NCBI GenBank assembly: GCA_021647785.1 | Contig: JAKIUC010000015.1 | Location: 1-64,000 of the forward strand | DNA from: Melioribacteraceae bacterium | Lineage (GTDB): Bacteria; Bacteroidota; Ignavibacteria; Ignavibacteriales; Melioribacteraceae | Reading direction: 5' to 3' | Length of the DNA: 64,000 bases | In this document: piece after piece, positions 2,647-25,092 of the stretch | Layout of the letters: each line of letters starts with the position of its first letter | Numbering within the stretch: position 1 is the stretch's first letter | The notes under the pieces: generated by a model | What the model was told of the DNA's origin: nothing | Database searches by the model: none | Seen by the model: the letters and a program-made list of their open reading frames with translations, nothing else | Made by a program: the position numbers and the translations under genes

Positions 2647-3348
2647 ATGATTGTTGGTAATTATAATTTTCATCAAATACTATTTGCATTAGATACATTC
2701 AAAGAAGTTGATGAAAAAATAGAATATTTAATAAAAATTAAACGTGAACTTGTTAGAATTGTGGCTTGTTTTGAAGAACCCAAAACTCTACCATTAAAAA
2801 TGTATGCTTCAAAAAATATTAATATAGAGGGAAGTTGTGAAGAATTGAAGGATTTTATAAAACATCAATTTAAAACAATTTCTTCAAACCCTTATGATAC
2901 AAGATATCCTGGAGAGGGTGAGCTAAGAGGATTGGTGAGGGCTGAATTAGTTAATTACCAAAAAGTACTTACTATTATTAAAGATGAAATAGATTTATTG
3001 GAAAAGAAAAATCCTAAAAGTGAAAAACTAATTGTGGTGAAGAATAAATTTATTACATTAGAAAAATTCTCTCCCCATTTTATTTCAAAATTATTAAAAG
3101 AATTAACCGGACAAAAGATAATTTGGAATAGTTCGATAGGGGAGTTAATTGACTTGGTTAAAATAATGATTATTCTTGAATTGGTTAATGATTTAGAGGA
3201 AGATAATCTTCCAAAATTTGTTACTAAACATTTTGTTAATAGAAGCAAAGAAAAATATACTATTCCACAGATTGAAAAAGTTCATAAAATGTTACAAAAC
3301 ACGTTCTGGCAAAACGGCAGAAATGAAAGCCCTAAATATTTTCAATAA
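2647..3348 (+). CDS. protein of unknown function, 233 aa
   Basis: I do not recognise this family. The protein is soluble, mostly helical by composition (many Lys, Glu, Leu, Ile), and has no signal peptide, membrane segment or obvious catalytic motif. Residues near the middle (YDTRYPGEGELRG) form the only glycine/proline-rich stretch. The gene has its own promoter region with a CRP/FNR-like palindrome about 85 bp upstream. Its stop codon directly abuts the convergent exonuclease gene with no intervening base. Codon use is like that of its neighbours. It could be a regulatory or phage-related protein, but nothing in the sequence decides this. Confidence 0.75.
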   Translation: MIVGNYNFHQILFALDTFKEVDEKIEYLIKIKRELVRIVACFEEPKTLPLKMYASKNINIEGSCEELKDFIKHQFKTISSNPYDTRYPGEGELRGLVRAELVNYQKVLTIIKDEIDLLEKKNPKSEKLIVVKNKFITLEKFSPHFISKLLKELTGQKIIWNSSIGELIDLVKIMIILELVNDLEEDNLPKFVTKHFVNRSKEKYTIPQIEKVHKMLQNTFWQNGRNESPKYFQ

Positions 3349-4035
3349 TTAAATATTTAAATATTCATTCCATATTTTATAAAGTTCGTATGTTGCCTTA
3401 ACATCGTGGCTACAATAAGTTGCAATCTCTTTAATTTTTCCTGCTTCGTAGAGTTCTTTCACATCCATTCCGGAAACTCCGTGCGATTTTGGCGATTCAA
3501 TTCCAAAAGTTTGGCAGTAAAAATCGAGATTAAATTTCTTTGTAATTCCATACTGCGTAAATTTATCTAATAAGTCGATGTGCGATTTGTTGTCGTATCT
3601 TTTTCGGATAAAATTTCTGGTAGGTTTAACTTTCAATATAGCGGAACGCATCATTAAAAAAGGGATATCGAAATTCCGTCCATTAAATGTAATTACTGCA
3701 TCAGCTTTTTTTGCATACTCCCAAAAGCGAGTGAGCATTTCTTTTTCGGAGTAAGCACAATATTTCACATCACCATTTTCTGACTGCCATTCGGACTCTA
3801 CAGAATCCTCATACAAAACCATTGAATGCTCGGTTTCTGTATTTAACATTCCAATTGCAACAACCCTTGCAGTTAATGGATATAGGGATAAATAGCGAAT
3901 TGCTTCATCTTCCTTTTTCTTTTTAAGTTCACTATCAATTTCTTTTTCGGAATAACGAAGTATAAATTCTTGCTGTGATTCCGTGAGTGAATTAAAATCG
4001 AACCCAACTGTTTCAATATCAAAAACTAATTTCAT
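3349..4035 (-). CDS. 3'-5' exonuclease, ribonuclease H-like (DEDD) fold
   Basis: A 228-residue nuclease of the DEDD superfamily, related to the exonuclease domain of family B DNA polymerases. Exo I is FDIET (Asp6, Glu8), Exo II is in FNGRNFDIPFL near residue 120, and Exo III is in YCSHDVKATYELY near 210. These supply the two-metal catalytic acids. It stands alone, without a polymerase domain, so it probably trims DNA or RNA ends in repair or turnover. GAGGG precedes the ATG at the usual distance. It is convergent with the unknown gene and abuts it exactly. Confidence 0.85.
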   Translation of the reverse strand: MKLVFDIETVGFDFNSLTESQQEFILRYSEKEIDSELKKKKEDEAIRYLSLYPLTARVVAIGMLNTETEHSMVLYEDSVESEWQSENGDVKYCAYSEKEMLTRFWEYAKKADAVITFNGRNFDIPFLMMRSAILKVKPTRNFIRKRYDNKSHIDLLDKFTQYGITKKFNLDFYCQTFGIESPKSHGVSGMDVKELYEAGKIKEIATYCSHDVKATYELYKIWNEYLNI

Positions 4036-5770: not shown

Positions 5771-7564
5771 TTAGAAACAATATTTGTTTGCTTCAATCAA
5801 TTTATCAGCAATACTTCTTCTTAGAACTTTTGTGTTGACTGGCTGATATTTTGTGAAACGCTTTAACCCCATTAGCATTAATTTTAGTTCATCTCCTTCA
5901 GCAAAAGAAGATATAGCTTGTTTTCCGTAGAAGTTTATTCTATCAATAGCATCGTTAAGATAAACTTTCGTCATTTCAATATAGTGTTTTGCTTCACCTT
6001 CCCCTCTATTTGATATTAACTTTTGGGTACGCAGCAGAACTGATTCGCAAGCAAAAACTTCAATCATCATATCAGTAGTGTTCATAATAATTTCTTGTTC
6101 ATCAGCAAGTTTTGCCATAAATTTTTGTGCAGAAGCACCAGCAACCATTAGAACAGCTTTCTTAATATTTTGTACTGCTTTGGTCTCTGCTGATAACACT
6201 CCTTCTTCCTCACTTCCAAAATCTGGAATTGACATAAGCTCCTTAGTAATTGCCATTGCTGGTCCCAGCAAATTAATACGTCCTTTCATTGAACGTTTCA
6301 AAAGCATATCAACAGTTAACAATCTGTTAATTTCATTAGTCCCTTCAAATATTCTATTAATTCTCGAATCACGATAGGCTCTCGCAGCAGGGTATTCTTC
6401 CGAGTATCCATAACCGCCTAAAATTTGAACACCTTCATCAACCACATAATCGAGAACTTCTGACCCAAATACTTTTGCCATTGCACACTCAATAGCATAT
6501 TCCTCAGCAGCTTTTCTTAATGCTTCCTCATAAGTATCCCCAGCAGCATGTAGCTCTTTCTCCTTCTTGTCTATTAAATCACTTATTCTATATGTTAACG
6601 ATTCTGATGCAAATATTTTTATTGCCTGCTCGGCTAATTTATGTTTAATTGCACCAAAGTTAGAAATAAACTGTTTGAATTGTTTTCTTTCATTCGCATA
6701 TTCAATGCTGAATGTGGATACATTTTTTGCACTTCCCGTTGCCATTGCACAGAGTTTAAATCTTCCAATATTTAGTACATTAAATGCAATGTAATGACCC
6801 TTTCCAATTTCGCCCAAAACATTTTCTTTTGGAACTTTAACATTCTCTAAGTATAGTGCTCTGGTGGATGAACCCTTTATTCCAAGTTTATTCTCTTCTT
6901 CCCCTTTTGTGAACCCTTCAGAATTTGTATCAATTATAAATCCGGTAAAATGTTCACCATCAACTTTAGCAAAAGTAATTAATATATCGGCAAAGCCGCC
7001 ATTTGTTATCCACATCTTTTGACCATTCAAAATATAGAACTGACCATCATCAGAAAGTACAGCAGTTGCTTTTGCAGAGAGGGCATCTGAACCAGCACCA
7101 GGCTCTGTTAAACAATACGCCGATTTTAACTCACCCGAAGCTAATTTTGGTAAGTATTTTTCCTTCTGTTCTTTATTACCATAATAGAGAATTGGCAATG
7201 TACCAATTCCAGTATGAGCAGCAAATGTAACCCCAAATGCGTAGGCATTACCCATTGCCATAGCAAGTGCTGTTGCGGTGTTAAAGTCTTCTCCTAAGCC
7301 TCCATATTCTTCAGGAACAGATACCCCAAGAAGCCCAAGTTCACCAGCTTTCTCAAGTATTTTAACTGTTAAGCCAGGTTCCTGCTTATCAATTTTATCC
7401 AGGTTCGGAGTAATCTCTTTTTCAACAAATTCCATAGCTAAATCAGCCATCATGTTTTGTTCTTCCGATAACTCTTCGGGAATAAATATAGTTTTGGGGT
7501 CAGTTTCTTTTATTAGAAACTCACCACCCTTTAGTACTTCAACTTTTAATTTTTCATTTTCCAT
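5771..7564 (-). CDS. acyl-CoA dehydrogenase, 597 aa with C-terminal extension
   Basis: FAD-dependent first step of beta-oxidation: acyl-CoA to trans-2-enoyl-CoA. The substrate/FAD signature YCLTEPGAGSDALS lies near residue 150, and GYGYSEEYPAARAYRDSRI is followed by FEGTNEI, which carries the catalytic Glu loop. The protein is about 200 residues longer than a medium-chain enzyme. The extra C-terminal domain is the arrangement of the very-long-chain type (VLCAD-like, common in Bacteroidota), so long-chain substrates are likely. The electron acceptor would be ETF, which is not encoded here. A strong terminator follows the gene. Confidence 0.93.
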   Translation of the reverse strand: MENEKLKVEVLKGGEFLIKETDPKTIFIPEELSEEQNMMADLAMEFVEKEITPNLDKIDKQEPGLTVKILEKAGELGLLGVSVPEEYGGLGEDFNTATALAMAMGNAYAFGVTFAAHTGIGTLPILYYGNKEQKEKYLPKLASGELKSAYCLTEPGAGSDALSAKATAVLSDDGQFYILNGQKMWITNGGFADILITFAKVDGEHFTGFIIDTNSEGFTKGEEENKLGIKGSSTRALYLENVKVPKENVLGEIGKGHYIAFNVLNIGRFKLCAMATGSAKNVSTFSIEYANERKQFKQFISNFGAIKHKLAEQAIKIFASESLTYRISDLIDKKEKELHAAGDTYEEALRKAAEEYAIECAMAKVFGSEVLDYVVDEGVQILGGYGYSEEYPAARAYRDSRINRIFEGTNEINRLLTVDMLLKRSMKGRINLLGPAMAITKELMSIPDFGSEEEGVLSAETKAVQNIKKAVLMVAGASAQKFMAKLADEQEIIMNTTDMMIEVFACESVLLRTQKLISNRGEGEAKHYIEMTKVYLNDAIDRINFYGKQAISSFAEGDELKLMLMGLKRFTKYQPVNTKVLRRSIADKLIEANKYCF

Positions 7565-12562: not shown

Positions 12563-14332
12563 TTAAGTACTTTCTTCAGCATACATTTCTTCAATCAAAT
12601 CTTCATACTTCTTTAATATTACTTTTCTTTTTACTTTTTGCGTAGGTGTTAATTCACCCGAATCTACTGACCATTCATCTACCAACAATCTGATATTTTT
12701 TATTTTCCTTGTTTTACCAAATTCCACATTCATCTCTTCAACCTCTTGCCAGATGCGTTCGTAAACACCTTCACAATTAATTATCTCCTCATTTGTTTCC
12801 ACATTGTGCCCTTTAATTTTGCACCAATTTTTCAAATATGGAAATGCAGGAATTATTAAAGCTGCTGGATATTTTCTGTTTTCACCAATAACCATAACTT
12901 GTTCAATAAAGAAAGACTCCTTCATTTTATTTTCAAGAGGTTGCGGTGCAATATACTTTCCGCCAGATGTTTTGAATATTTGTTTTAGTCTATCTGTAAT
13001 TTTAAGATATTCTCCATCAACAAATTCTCCAACATCACCAGTATGAAACCATCCATCTGCATCTATAGCTACACTATTCAATTCTGGTCTTTTGTAGTAG
13101 CCAATCATAATGTTAGGACCACGAGCAAGAATTTCTCCATTATCAGCAATTTTAATTTCAACATTGGGGATAACTGGTCCAACAGTTCCAAAACAGTATC
13201 CACCTTTTTCAAAGCGGTTATCTGTAAGCACAGGAGAGCATTCCGTCAATCCATAACCTTCTCTAACTGGTAACCCCGCAGCAGTAAAAATTCTACCAAG
13301 GCGTACTTGAAGGGCGGCAGCACCAACAATAATACCCTTAATATTTCCTCCCAAAGCTTCTCGCCACTTGCTAAAAACTAATTTACTGGCTATGCTCAAC
13401 TTAAAGTTATACCAAGAACTATTGTTTCCTTTATCATCAAAATCTAATCCAACATTTACTGCCCAGAAGAATATCATTTTTTTTAACCCGCTTAAACCTC
13501 TTCCTTTAGTAATTATTTTTTCGTAAACTTTTTCTAATAAGCGCGGTACGGTAATAAAGAAATCAGGTTTAACCTCTTTCAAATTGTCAACTATTTTTTC
13601 AAGACTTTCAGCATAATAGACTGATGTACCCACAAAGATGTAGAAGTAGATTGCTGTACGTTCAAAAATGTGACATAGTGGTAAGAAACTTAATGCTTTG
13701 TGAGTATAATTGTGAGGCATAGTTTTTTGAATTGATTGAGCATTACTAACAATATTTTTATGCGAAAGCATTACTCCTTTTTGACCACCAGTGGTACCCG
13801 AAGTATAAATAATTGTTGCAAGGTCAGTCTCTTTTACAGAGTCTTTAAGTTCCTGCAATTTGTTTGATAAAGATTCGTCTGAATCTTTTGTTAATTCACT
13901 CCAATGTTTTACATTCTCAATTTTGTTAAATGAATAAACATCCACTACACTTGGAGAGGTATTGAGAATACTTTTTACTTTTTCATAAATTTCTTCATCC
14001 GATACAAAAACCAATTTTACTTCAGCTTCATTAAATATAAACTCATATTCTTTTTCAGTAATGTTCGGATACATTGGAACACCAATTGCCTTTATTTGCA
14101 ATGCACCAAAATCTACGAAATTCCATTCAGGGCGGTTGTTAGAAATAATTGCAATTTTATCTCCAGGTTCAATTCCCATTTTTAACAGCCCCAAACTAAC
14201 TTTATCAATAATGTTCTGACACTCCTGAGAACTATATTTTTTCCATTCTCCATTTTCTTTACAGCAAATTGCATCTTCTTGCGGAAAGTTGTCAATTTGG
14301 TACGGCAAATAATCTAAAATTGTTTTAATCAT
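12563..14332 (-). CDS. long-chain fatty acid-CoA ligase (AMP-forming)
   Basis: Activates fatty acids to acyl-CoA with ATP. The ANL-superfamily signatures are present: P-loop TIIYTSGTTGGQKGVMLSH near 175-193, GYGLTECSP near 365, and YLKITDRLKQIFKTSGGKYI near 450. At 589 residues it matches the long-chain (FAA1-like) branch. It is the most upstream gene of the minus-strand beta-oxidation group and faces the divergent XRE regulator gene across 214 bp containing a 14-bp palindrome. It is therefore the most likely direct target of that regulator. Confidence 0.93.
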   Translation of the reverse strand: MIKTILDYLPYQIDNFPQEDAICCKENGEWKKYSSQECQNIIDKVSLGLLKMGIEPGDKIAIISNNRPEWNFVDFGALQIKAIGVPMYPNITEKEYEFIFNEAEVKLVFVSDEEIYEKVKSILNTSPSVVDVYSFNKIENVKHWSELTKDSDESLSNKLQELKDSVKETDLATIIYTSGTTGGQKGVMLSHKNIVSNAQSIQKTMPHNYTHKALSFLPLCHIFERTAIYFYIFVGTSVYYAESLEKIVDNLKEVKPDFFITVPRLLEKVYEKIITKGRGLSGLKKMIFFWAVNVGLDFDDKGNNSSWYNFKLSIASKLVFSKWREALGGNIKGIIVGAAALQVRLGRIFTAAGLPVREGYGLTECSPVLTDNRFEKGGYCFGTVGPVIPNVEIKIADNGEILARGPNIMIGYYKRPELNSVAIDADGWFHTGDVGEFVDGEYLKITDRLKQIFKTSGGKYIAPQPLENKMKESFFIEQVMVIGENRKYPAALIIPAFPYLKNWCKIKGHNVETNEEIINCEGVYERIWQEVEEMNVEFGKTRKIKNIRLLVDEWSVDSGELTPTQKVKRKVILKKYEDLIEEMYAEEST

Positions 14333-19895: not shown

Positions 19896-20020
19896 CACTT
19901 CGACAAGCTCAGTGCAACGTCTCAAGAGGGGAAACGTCAGCCCCTGCGGAGCATTAAAGTCCCCTCTTGAGAGGGAAACGTCAGCCCCTGCAGAGCATTA
20001 AAAGTCCCCTCTTGAGAGGG
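19896..20020. repeat. composite intergenic repeat with two 44/45-bp direct copies
   Basis: It starts with the palindrome-like CACTTCGACAAGCTCAGTG (19896-19914), a repeat seen between genes in many bacteria of this group. Then come two tandem copies of a 44/45-bp unit (19932-19975 and 19976-20020) that differ by one substitution and one inserted A. Each unit ends in CCCCTCTTGAGAGG, which can pair with CTCAAGAGGGG at 19921-19931. Short ORFs read through this block are artefacts of the repeat. Confidence 0.8.
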
Positions 20021-20045
20021 GGTTGGGGGTGTGTTCTTTTTAGTT

Positions 20046-20330
20046 TTAGTGTTTAATTTCAAATAGTGTAAATTCACTCTTATACTCGAACCAATTAACC
20101 GAATGCGATTTAACATACGAATGACTTGGTCCAATTTTTATATAATCAATTAATTCTTCAACTAAATACCTTTCACCTTCAACTACAGTAACAACTTCAC
20201 CAGTAAATAGATTTTTTGTATATCCATTTAATCCAAGATTTTGAGCTTTGGAATAAACGAAATATCTAAATCCAACTCCTTGAACTAATCCGGAAACTGT
20301 AATTTCTGCTTTTACAAAATTGTTAGGCAT
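20046..20330 (-). CDS. acyP: acylphosphatase
   Basis: A small 94-residue enzyme that hydrolyses acyl phosphates such as carbamoyl- or acetyl-phosphate. VQGVGFRYFVYSKAQNLGLNG contains the phosphate-binding loop with the catalytic Arg, and GYTKNLFTGEVVTVVEGE contains the second motif with the Asn. The length and fold pattern match the family exactly. It is separated from ispF by a repeat block and transcribed in the same direction. Confidence 0.93.
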   Translation of the reverse strand: MPNNFVKAEITVSGLVQGVGFRYFVYSKAQNLGLNGYTKNLFTGEVVTVVEGERYLVEELIDYIKIGPSHSYVKSHSVNWFEYKSEFTLFEIKH

Positions 20331-22391: not shown

Positions 22392-22537
22392 ACTATTTCT
22401 TTTTGTTTTTGCAAAGATAGTAATTTGCTTTAATTATTTACTTGCATTAATAAAATAACTATTACTACTTTTGTAGTAGTTAAATATTTATTTAATAAAT
22501 CTTTAATTAATCTAGGAGGCAACATGAGTACCCACAA

Positions 22538-22584
22538 CCGCAATACCGCAATACCGCAATACCGCAATACCGCAATACCGCAAT
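22538..22584 (+). repeat. octanucleotide tandem repeat (CCGCAATA), 5 full units plus 7 nt
   Basis: Five perfect CCGCAATA units and a partial sixth lie 14 bp after an ATG (22524-22526) that has a strong AGGAGG ribosome site. Because the unit is 8 bp, each gain or loss shifts the reading frame. With the present number, the ATG leads to a TAG 31 codons later. One more unit, or two fewer, would join it to the lipoprotein frame that follows. This is the structure of a slipped-strand phase-variation switch, read here in the OFF state. Confidence 0.88.
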
Positions 22585-22641
22585 TTAATTTATATTTTTC
22601 TAATTGCAATTATTTCTAGCATTATCTTTTCTTGTAACGAA

Positions 22642-23640
22642 ATGGTTACTAATGAGAATCATGAAAAAGTGAGTGGAAAACTTTTAAAAGAAATTGGACC
22701 TAAAGCTCTAAACTGTAGTAAAAGAACAAAGTTTGTTTGGGGGTTAGACCATTATAAACCAAGGAATGGTAAAGAAATAGGGTTTTGGCCCACTGGATTT
22801 GCATCAATGAGTAAAATGAAAGTTAAGTGGGGGTTTTCAAATGTTTTTATTCGCAGCGAAAGTGAATATACTCAAGCAAAGAATGCAGGATTCACAGATG
22901 CCGATATGATGGCAAACGTAACGATAACTAACAATACCACTAGTGCTTATAGTTACCCTTTTAAACCTGCACAGTATTTTGAAAATTATTATATTGATGA
23001 ACCAAGTGAACATGGAAAAACACTTGCAAATGTAGATATTGTTGCTAAAGATTTAGCACCAAATTTACTAAAATTAGGAAGCTATAAAATTGGATTTTGG
23101 TTAGACCCCCAAGACTGGCATGAAGATTTTTACAAAACCATTATTTCTTGGAATAGTAATGTGCGAATTATGAGTGACAATTATTACGGGCTACTATGTG
23201 CGTTTGACCAAAGAAGTTATTGGGATGATTTTAAAGATGCGTATGGAAATAAAAACGAAATGAATTGGACTTCGTTGATTATTGATAGACCAAATTATGA
23301 GTTCTTTGGTCTTTTTCAAAAAGCAAGTAGTCTTGGAATGAATAGCTTGTGGTTATACATTGGGAGAGAAGATACCTATTGTGGTGATGGTACGCATTTA
23401 AAACAATCACTCTTTGATAGTTATTTAAGTGTTTTTCTTAGCTCTGCAAAATCGGCAGGTTGGTTAACACAGTATGATCGTTTATATAGATTTGAATATA
23501 GTTGCCCTACAGCAGACCCATGCAATACTTGTGACCAAAATAACATTTCAGAATCTAGCGGTTGGGTATTGGATAAAGTAATTAATACTGGTTACATTGA
23601 AGAATGGGACGAAAGCCATTGGGAGGAAACAACACAATGA
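22642..23640 (+). CDS. probable phase-variable lipoprotein, TIM-barrel-like, unknown function
   Basis: The first Met in this frame is at 22642, but the frame is open upstream and encodes NLIYIFLIAIISSIIFSC (22582-22635), a lipoprotein signal with an FSC lipobox. The intended start is therefore the ATG at 22524, which is out of frame in this sequence because of the octanucleotide repeat. The 332 residues after the lipobox alternate beta and helical stretches (KFVWGLDHY, YYIDEPSEHG, KIGFWLDPQDW, TSLIIDRPNY, SLWLYIGRE) like a TIM barrel of a glycosidase, but I do not recognise the family. The last codons overlap the next gene by 4 bp. If the repeat count is real, no exported product is made in this cell. 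Confidence 0.75.
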   Translation: MVTNENHEKVSGKLLKEIGPKALNCSKRTKFVWGLDHYKPRNGKEIGFWPTGFASMSKMKVKWGFSNVFIRSESEYTQAKNAGFTDADMMANVTITNNTTSAYSYPFKPAQYFENYYIDEPSEHGKTLANVDIVAKDLAPNLLKLGSYKIGFWLDPQDWHEDFYKTIISWNSNVRIMSDNYYGLLCAFDQRSYWDDFKDAYGNKNEMNWTSLIIDRPNYEFFGLFQKASSLGMNSLWLYIGREDTYCGDGTHLKQSLFDSYLSVFLSSAKSAGWLTQYDRLYRFEYSCPTADPCNTCDQNNISESSGWVLDKVINTGYIEEWDESHWEETTQ

Positions 23641-24287
23641 GAAAAGTACCTTTTGTAATATTTTTTATTTTGTTAAGTAATAACATTTTTGCACAAGGTT
23701 TTGGCTTAACTATTAAATCCACTTTTCATGTTGGAACTAGTTATTCTTCATATACAAATTTGTCTCTTGAAGGACTATTTTCTTTTTATGACAATATGTT
23801 TGAAGTTGGACCAATAATTGGAATTGTTTATTCTGAACCTAAACCAAATTTTGATAATATTACATTATCCGGTTATTATTATACAGATGTTGTAGATATT
23901 GCAAAGATTTTAATTGGTGGTAAGCTCTACTTTTACCCAATTACATTTAACTCCACCTTTGCACCATTTATTGGAGTTAGTGTTGGGAAACTTAGTGATA
24001 GTAAATCCCTTCTTTTTTTTCTTAAAAGTGGAGATAATATGATTATGCAATCTGGACTTTATAATTTTAAGACAATAGATGATTACTCCTACTCATTTTT
24101 AAGTGGACTTAAAATATTCACTACAAAGGGTTTTAATTTTTTTCTTGAATTAGAATTCCAATATCGGAAGTTTACTTTAGAGTACGATGAATATTGGGAA
24201 TACCCTATTGATGAGTGGATAGAACATTCTGAAAAGATGAGCATTAAAGCTTTTAACATAGGTGTTGGTTTGCAGTTTGTGTTTTAA
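23637..24287 (+). CDS. outer-membrane beta-barrel protein, copy 1
   Basis: A 216-residue exported protein with signal peptide MRKVPFVIFFILLSNNIFAQ, alternating beta strands and a terminal QFVF, the signature of proteins inserted into the outer membrane by BamA. Shared phrases with the following gene (YDNMFEVGPIIGI, FYPI, FAPFIGV, LELEFQYRKFTLEYDEY) show the two are paralogues. The start is the ATG at 23637, overlapping the lipoprotein stop (ATGA) with GGGAGG just upstream, so it is translationally coupled to the lipoprotein gene. The function is unknown. Confidence 0.82.
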   Translation: MRKVPFVIFFILLSNNIFAQGFGLTIKSTFHVGTSYSSYTNLSLEGLFSFYDNMFEVGPIIGIVYSEPKPNFDNITLSGYYYTDVVDIAKILIGGKLYFYPITFNSTFAPFIGVSVGKLSDSKSLLFFLKSGDNMIMQSGLYNFKTIDDYSYSFLSGLKIFTTKGFNFFLELEFQYRKFTLEYDEYWEYPIDEWIEHSEKMSIKAFNIGVGLQFVF

Positions 24288-24292
24288 TTATA

Positions 24293-24391
24293 AACATCTC
24301 CGAATCTGGAGGTTGGGTGTTGGATAAAGTAATTAATACTGGTTACATTGAAGAATGGGACGAAAGTCATTGGGAGGAAACAACTCAATGA
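24293..24391 (+). pseudogene. duplicated 3' end of the lipoprotein gene (fragment)
   Basis: Thirty-two codons plus a stop reproduce the C-terminus of the upstream lipoprotein (NISES then GWVLDKVINTGYIEEW...) with few base changes, and it has no start of its own. It still supplies the GGGAGG ribosome site and the ATGA overlap for outer-membrane copy 2. It shows that a unit of about 750 bp (lipoprotein tail plus barrel gene) was duplicated in tandem. Confidence 0.88.
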
Positions 24392-25092
24392 GAAAAATTA
24401 TTTTCATAATACTTTTTCTTTTATTGAATTGTACAATTTCTTCACAAGATTTTGGTCTATCTGCTAAATACTCTATCAATGTAGAAAATAGCTATGATAC
24501 TTATAGAACTCTTTCTTTTGGGGGTTCTTATTTCTTTTATAATAATATGTTCGAAGTTGGACCTTTAATTGGTATTGAATATTCTGAACTAAAGGGAAAT
24601 TATAGTGATATTGATTTTAGTGAGGAAAAATATTATTTCATCGATAAGGTGGAAACTGGTAGTGCATTTGTGGGGGCAAATTTATATTTTTATCCAATTA
24701 AACTTTCTATTGCCCTTTCACCATTTATTGGTATAAGAGGTGGAGTTTATACTGAAAACCGATCCTTAAGCTATCTACTTTATCCAGTAATCTTTCTATT
24801 TTATCCAAATGATTATCTCTATCCTGGAGGTAACCATATTTCTGAACCTGGACTTTATAATTTTCATGCAGATAAAAAATATGAGTTTTCACTATTAACA
24901 GGATTTAAACTTATATCAAAAAAAGGAATTAATGTCATTTTTGAATTAGAGTACCAACATCGCAAATTTACTCTTAAGTATGATGAGTATAGGTATGATT
25001 CAGAAGGTTGGTTAAAAATAGTAGAAAGACACTCTGAAGACCAGATTGTAAATGCTTTTAATTTTGGTATTGGTTTGCAGTTTGTGTTTTAA
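24388..25092 (+). CDS. outer-membrane beta-barrel protein, copy 2
   Basis: A 234-residue paralogue of the preceding barrel protein. It has a signal sequence ending near SSQ, the shared YNNMFEVGPLIGIEYSE and ELEYQHRKFTLKYDEY blocks, and the same terminal GLQFVF. The start is the ATG at 24388, behind the duplicated GGGAGG. Loops between strands differ most from copy 1 (for example FYPNDYLYPGG), as expected for surface-exposed parts. The two copies may have diverged in ligand or antigenic properties; the function is unknown. Confidence 0.82.
   Translation: MRKIIFIILFLLLNCTISSQDFGLSAKYSINVENSYDTYRTLSFGGSYFFYNNMFEVGPLIGIEYSELKGNYSDIDFSEEKYYFIDKVETGSAFVGANLYFYPIKLSIALSPFIGIRGGVYTENRSLSYLLYPVIFLFYPNDYLYPGGNHISEPGLYNFHADKKYEFSLLTGFKLISKKGINVIFELEYQHRKFTLKYDEYRYDSEGWLKIVERHSEDQIVNAFNFGIGLQFVF

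Follow-up and report, generated by a model that had tools for sequence, protein, structure and literature searches.

In the 64,000-nucleotide stretch of DNA analysed here (the window), part of contig JAKIUC010000015.1 of a Melioribacteraceae bacterium, a lipoprotein gene is followed by two outer-membrane protein genes on the forward strand, and the neighbouring genes, encoding an EamA-type transporter, era and maeB, assign the window to the uncultured Ignavibacteriales. Direct reading places a ribosome-binding site, AGGAGG (22514-22519), 4 nt upstream of an ATG at 22524, and about 11-13 nt past this ATG begins an octanucleotide tandem array (22537-22584, ACCGCAAT x 6.0, 100% matches in TRF), our proposed slipped-strand switch. 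Every letter of this perfect 48-bp array was checked; it consists of five CCGCAATA units (22538-22577) and a terminal CCGCAAT (22578-22584), i.e., the five units plus 7 nt behind a well-placed ATG that the initial annotation had described. The frame of the ATG (22524-22619) also ends where it had been said to end, after 31 codons (MSTHNRNTAIPQYRNTAIPQFNLYFSNCNYF) at a TAG (22617-22619), and constitutes the OFF state. A different frame, open from 22528 to 23640 and start-less in its present state, encodes the signal peptide core and lipobox (LIYIFLIAIISSIIFSC, 22585-22635, Cys codon 22633-22635), which align with the lipoboxes of relatives, and the lipoprotein body (22642-23637). Past the array this frame retains 332 intact codons, and the body is matched by the family profile through its C-terminal end with zero extra stops. 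The earlier claim of an FSC lipobox and 332 residues with no prior start codon thus stands, as no ATG, GTG or TTG precedes the lipobox in this frame and the first one, at 22642, lies past the lipobox Cys.

The assembly, with five full units, has the lipoprotein out of frame. Computed products for zero to nine units bear out the annotated arithmetic, by which one unit more or two fewer would reopen the frame: 0, 3, 6 and 9 full units yield 358, 366, 374 and 382 residues, and 1, 2, 4, 5, 7 and 8 units yield peptides of 10 to 39 residues. The locus therefore has what a contingency locus is expected to have, i.e., six perfect copies, within the reading frame, of an 8-bp unit that is not a multiple of three, some unit numbers predicted to give a full-length product and others an early stop, and a coding frame that is otherwise intact. 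In the in-frame state the predicted product would have the n-region, hydrophobic core and Cys-ending lipobox (LIYIFLIAIISSIIFSC) of a bacterial lipoprotein, and the lipobox Cys is nearly invariant in the family alignment. Given that the zero-unit product (MSTHNRNLIYIFLIAIISSIIFSC...) resembles a normal lipoprotein signal, the array probably grew from a single CCGCAAT. All three frames are open across the array, since eight codons recur every 24 bp, and this would be compatible with a body frame that is always translated, through a non-standard start codon or programmed frameshifting, the repeats varying the n-region only. We regard such constant translation as extremely improbable: the body frame lacks the three common start codons before its lipobox, the strong AGGAGG serves the other frame, and out-of-frame states recur with unrelated units in the relatives described below, where no common slippery signal would explain them.

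The first outer-membrane gene (OMP1, 23637-24287) encodes a signal peptide and a predicted small beta-barrel ending in F; its ATG overlaps the TGA of the lipoprotein gene, and a GGGAGGA site of its own lies 10 nt upstream, within the tail of the lipoprotein gene. It is followed by a 96-bp copy of the lipoprotein C-terminal tail (24293-24391, 93% DNA identity, no ATG start) and by OMP2 (24388-25092), an OMP1 paralogue (49% amino acid identity) whose ATG shares bases with the TGA that ends this copy. The ATG-TGA overlaps at 23637 and 24388 agree with the annotated arrangement of two outer-membrane paralogues starting at the lipoprotein gene and at its duplicated tail. The two OMP genes share about 70% DNA identity with each other, as against 93% for the tail copy. 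In most lipoprotein family members from the taxonomic family (Melioribacteraceae), the lipoprotein stop is likewise followed, within about 50 bp, by a protein of 180-220 amino acids with a signal peptide and a terminal aromatic residue; these proteins were joined as one family by an iterated profile search, in which, the set being small, drift is possible. Four other genomes of the same genus all lack the lipoprotein in both whole-genome and profile searches; three carry barrel genes of this family, which again occupy the era-maeB slot in at least two cases. As congeners keep the OMP genes in this slot without it, the OMPs, judging from gene content, can do without the lipoprotein gene. The switch might also alter OMP1 or OMP2 expression, as the initial annotation proposed.

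Lipoprotein tails also recur upstream of OMP genes at other loci, where they are often diverged, mostly 62-81% identical to the parent and in several cases interrupted by stops. We considered that these repeated tails could be active recombination cassettes, but this idea is weakened by their identity levels and stops, which suit remnants of decayed cassettes better. Since the tails are diverged and carry stops, and a lipoprotein-OMP tandem is still intact in genome G060, we read them as such remnants, and the tail copy at 24293-24391 would probably be what is left of a second lipoprotein-OMP cassette. At another locus (L053, G055:C345), a transposase gene (6178-7398) lies within an array of OMP paralogues behind a family lipoprotein, and past this array there are a further lipoprotein tail and more OMP genes.

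The window belongs to a draft assembly of 99 contigs. A pattern search of this 4.25-Mb assembly found the 16-mer ACCGCAATACCGCAAT in a single place, and no other 8-bp array of three or more copies exists in the window and a 400-kb sample of the same genome, which together argue that the array is not a product of chance. Four loci with poly-C tracts of C8 or longer elsewhere in the genome were inspected, and the tracts showed no tendency to lie at gene starts. A 99-contig draft, probably derived from a metagenome, is open to error in tandem repeats, and the real unit number could then be constant and in frame, the present count being an assembly or base-calling artefact. However, a perfect array of 48 bp is shorter than an ordinary short read, and a miscount would leave untouched both the presence of an octamer array in the signal-peptide region and the family pattern, and we thus hold an artefact to be highly improbable. 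The same genome contains other repetitive sites: a C10 tract inside an ABC-transporter reading frame (L193, G000:C52, 1501-1510), possibly a further hypermutable site; short unrelated tandem arrays of AATATC, GTGAGAT, CTTTTCACCCAC and GTGAAAGTA crowded into 20 kb (L169, G000:C18, at 438-475, 2366-2386, 2963-3013 and 13969-13995); and, within the window (19926-20050), a REP-like interspersed element with a 'CCCCTCTTGAGAGGGG' palindrome and a 44-bp tandem unit, for which a DNA search gave 23 matching genomic places.

Nothing in Pfam, NCBIfam or the PDB sequences matches the lipoprotein body significantly, and a single-sequence AlphaFold2 model gave no usable fold (mean pLDDT 36.6). A contig scan with the window lipoprotein as the only query returned zero relatives; whole-genome searches of 196 related genomes were positive in 33, and a search with a profile built from 20 members of the lipoprotein family found relatives, some fragmentary, in 32 of the 79 genomes of the taxonomic family and 53 of the 164 of the order. 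About a third of Ignavibacteriales genomes thus carry relatives, and in an even sample of the phylum 3 of the 17 positive genomes lie outside this order. The motifs DEP and GIW are conserved. Distant relatives are parts of larger proteins, of which one has fibronectin type III domains and another matches a secretion-system sorting domain weakly, below threshold; such a setting suits an extracellular domain.

In eleven family members, that of the window and ten from six other genera, a repeat that changes the frame lies close to the coding start; in the ten it consists of poly-C (7-9 residues) or of CACT or ATTC tetramers. In most of them the repeat lies between the ATG and the signal core or lipobox. 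Three paralogues of G014 have poly-C tracts of eight (G014:C1, OFF), nine (G014:C17, ON) and seven residues (G014:C19, OFF) at this position, where tetramers are found in G016:C7 (CACT x3.75, OFF), G054:C213 (CACT x8.75, OFF, plus further stops), G074:C118 (TTCA x5.5, OFF), G060:C9a (ATTC x8.5, ON) and G060:C9b (ATTC x6.5, OFF). In G100 (seven C, OFF) and G130:C208 (eight C, ON) the tract lies directly past the lipobox. Three of the eleven repeat-bearing genes are in frame and eight out of frame, close to the third expected under random phase. Outside coding sequences, two genes of G101 have C13 and C8 tracts some 106-109 bp upstream, and putative promoters carry poly-T, i.e., T8 to T11 in four near-identical promoter-like stretches of G055 and T11 in G040. 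A second octamer array (TTTACGTC x10, L052, G055:C99, 1119-1200) precedes a broken family member by ~350 bp, and the same cassette has a C9 tract in the leader of an OMP gene (3440-3448).

This placement is far from what length alone would give. We defined strict frame-changing repeats as poly-C/G of 8 or more or a unit of 2, 4, 5, 7, 8, 10 or 11 bp present in at least 3 to 6 tandem copies, and found 15 in 765 kb made up of the window, the 400-kb genome sample and the family loci, the last chosen non-randomly around family members. Nine of the 15 fall in the first ~120 bp of family coding sequences, zones that make up <1% of the 765 kb and for which about 0.1 would be expected by chance; two others precede the G101 genes, in their 5' leaders. 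Without the window, 8 of 14 strict repeats are at family gene starts. The family-centred choice of control DNA does not by itself create a preference for gene starts over the rest of these loci. In the 4.2 Mb of G014 there are only five tracts of C8 or longer, and two of the five are within lipoprotein family genes. A maximum-likelihood tree of 43 members places the carriers of octamer, poly-C and tetramers in separate lineages, and coding-sequence poly-C requires three label changes on this tree, of which well-supported branches force two or more. As the repeat units are unrelated, at least three origins of frame-changing repeats in the family are likely on sequence grounds, and the two tetramers might share one common origin.

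A direct comparison comes from two species of one genus. Aligned with their flanks over 2090 bases, the alleles G060:C9b and G065:C1 show 96% identity, yet G060:C9b has exactly four ATTC units more (6.5 vs 2.5 in G065:C1), a gap that changes the frame. The in-frame allele, G065:C1, starts with TTG, not ATG, and the OFF allele, G060:C9b, is otherwise undamaged, with dN 0.0098 and dS 0.030 relative to its ON counterpart over 376 codons (only 15 differences). G060:C9a, a paralogue of G060:C9b with almost the same 5' end, is in frame at 8.5 units. At this locus (L107, G060:C9) two lipoprotein-OMP cassettes stand in tandem; their 5' ends, ATTC array included, are nearly identical, but the amino acid identity of their bodies is just 40%, which looks like an exchange of 5' ends by recombination.

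The initial annotation had suggested a phase-variation switch, and this reading gains from the orthologous pair with its four-unit difference, from the concentration of repeats at family gene starts, and from relatives in other genera, in which hypermutable repeats of unrelated sequence occur close to this position, both in frame and out of frame. The window gene could instead be a fixed pseudogene, in which one chance octamer expansion cost the frame and decay followed: the sole window allele examined is out of frame, the congeners are without the gene, and ordinary mutations clearly break some relatives (in-frame stops or frameshifts in G054:C213, G055:C99 and G101:C23a), dead copies being not unusual in this family. 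The present array, at five full units, is also short, and slippage may be slow. However, the other 332 codons are intact with the profile matched to their end, independent repeats occupy nearly the same site in other genera and in both states, and an array changed between otherwise near-identical orthologous alleles, which leaves a fixed pseudogene improbable, if less so than an artefact or constant translation. We consider it very probable that the window locus is a translational contingency locus, at present out of frame, and phase variation of the lipoprotein gene is, as far as comparison of alleles and relatives goes, well supported.

The switch would work as follows. With the array placed past the start codon and ahead of the signal peptide of a surface lipoprotein, slippage of DNA polymerase would gain or lose 8-bp units and move the frame by 8 bp per step; with 0, 3, 6 or 9 full units before the terminal CCGCAAT a complete lipoprotein would be made, its repeat-encoded residues confined to the n-region of the signal peptide and cleaved off, and with other counts, such as the present five, the cell would make a peptide of 10-39 residues and be without the lipoprotein (OFF). 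Within Ignavibacteriales the family would repeatedly bear such switches, with differing units at a similar position, usually upstream of small beta-barrel genes. We infer that slippage is the cause, that switching is reversible in populations and that the window's own allele takes part in it; the lipoprotein would be located on the surface and may have a role in surface variation, e.g., against phages or predators.

The mechanism is classical. In the opa genes of Neisseria, repeats of a non-triplet unit lie in the signal-peptide coding region, and multiple paralogues switch singly. The lipoprotein family is like opa in these respects, i.e., in signal-peptide repeats with a unit not divisible by three and in several paralogues per genome that would switch independently. 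Phase variation of Opa is listed in PMC11868660, which counts 11 phase-variable opa genes for one strain of the gonococcus. The two differ in that opa has a single unit, CTCTT, and encodes the beta-barrel itself, whereas here an unrelated lipoprotein would be switched, the unit varies by lineage (in the window it is CCGCAATA) and the host is environmental. The tetra- to octanucleotide contingency loci of Haemophilus, Moraxella and Neisseria follow the same translational frame-switch logic, but have no sequence relationship to the window gene and are mostly from host-associated bacteria. Variation of the Mycoplasma Vlp, Vsa and Vpma proteins mostly involves promoter tracts or DNA inversion. These are, like the window family, lipoprotein families with independent on/off variation, with no homology to it, and the poly-T tracts (T8-T11) of the G055 and G040 relatives are the nearest parallel to the Mycoplasma promoter tracts. 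Mycoplasma variable surface lipoproteins are mentioned in PMC11868660, and among the papers searched an octanucleotide repeat and phase variation come together only in PMC3309571. A literature search covering few subscription journals found no earlier report linking phase variation with Ignavibacteri-, and neither the gene family nor its host group appears to have been described in this context. The novelty lies in the lipoprotein family, in its hosts, and in the independent acquisition, more than once, of different repeats close to a single site.

Contingency loci are known chiefly from host-adapted pathogens and commensals. The present ones form a concrete set whose states are countable in existing metagenome reads. 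We lean towards an order-wide reading, in which lipoprotein and barrel cassettes are kept phase-variable across Ignavibacteriales by hypermutable repeats of several independent origins at or near one site, namely the octamer, poly-C, tetramers and, possibly, promoter poly-T. Unrelated repeats at the starts of one kind of surface-protein gene point to selection for random surface variation in environmental Ignavibacteriales. If the order-wide reading is true, such selection would be long-standing and act outside animal hosts, and it could be directed, e.g., against phages or predators.
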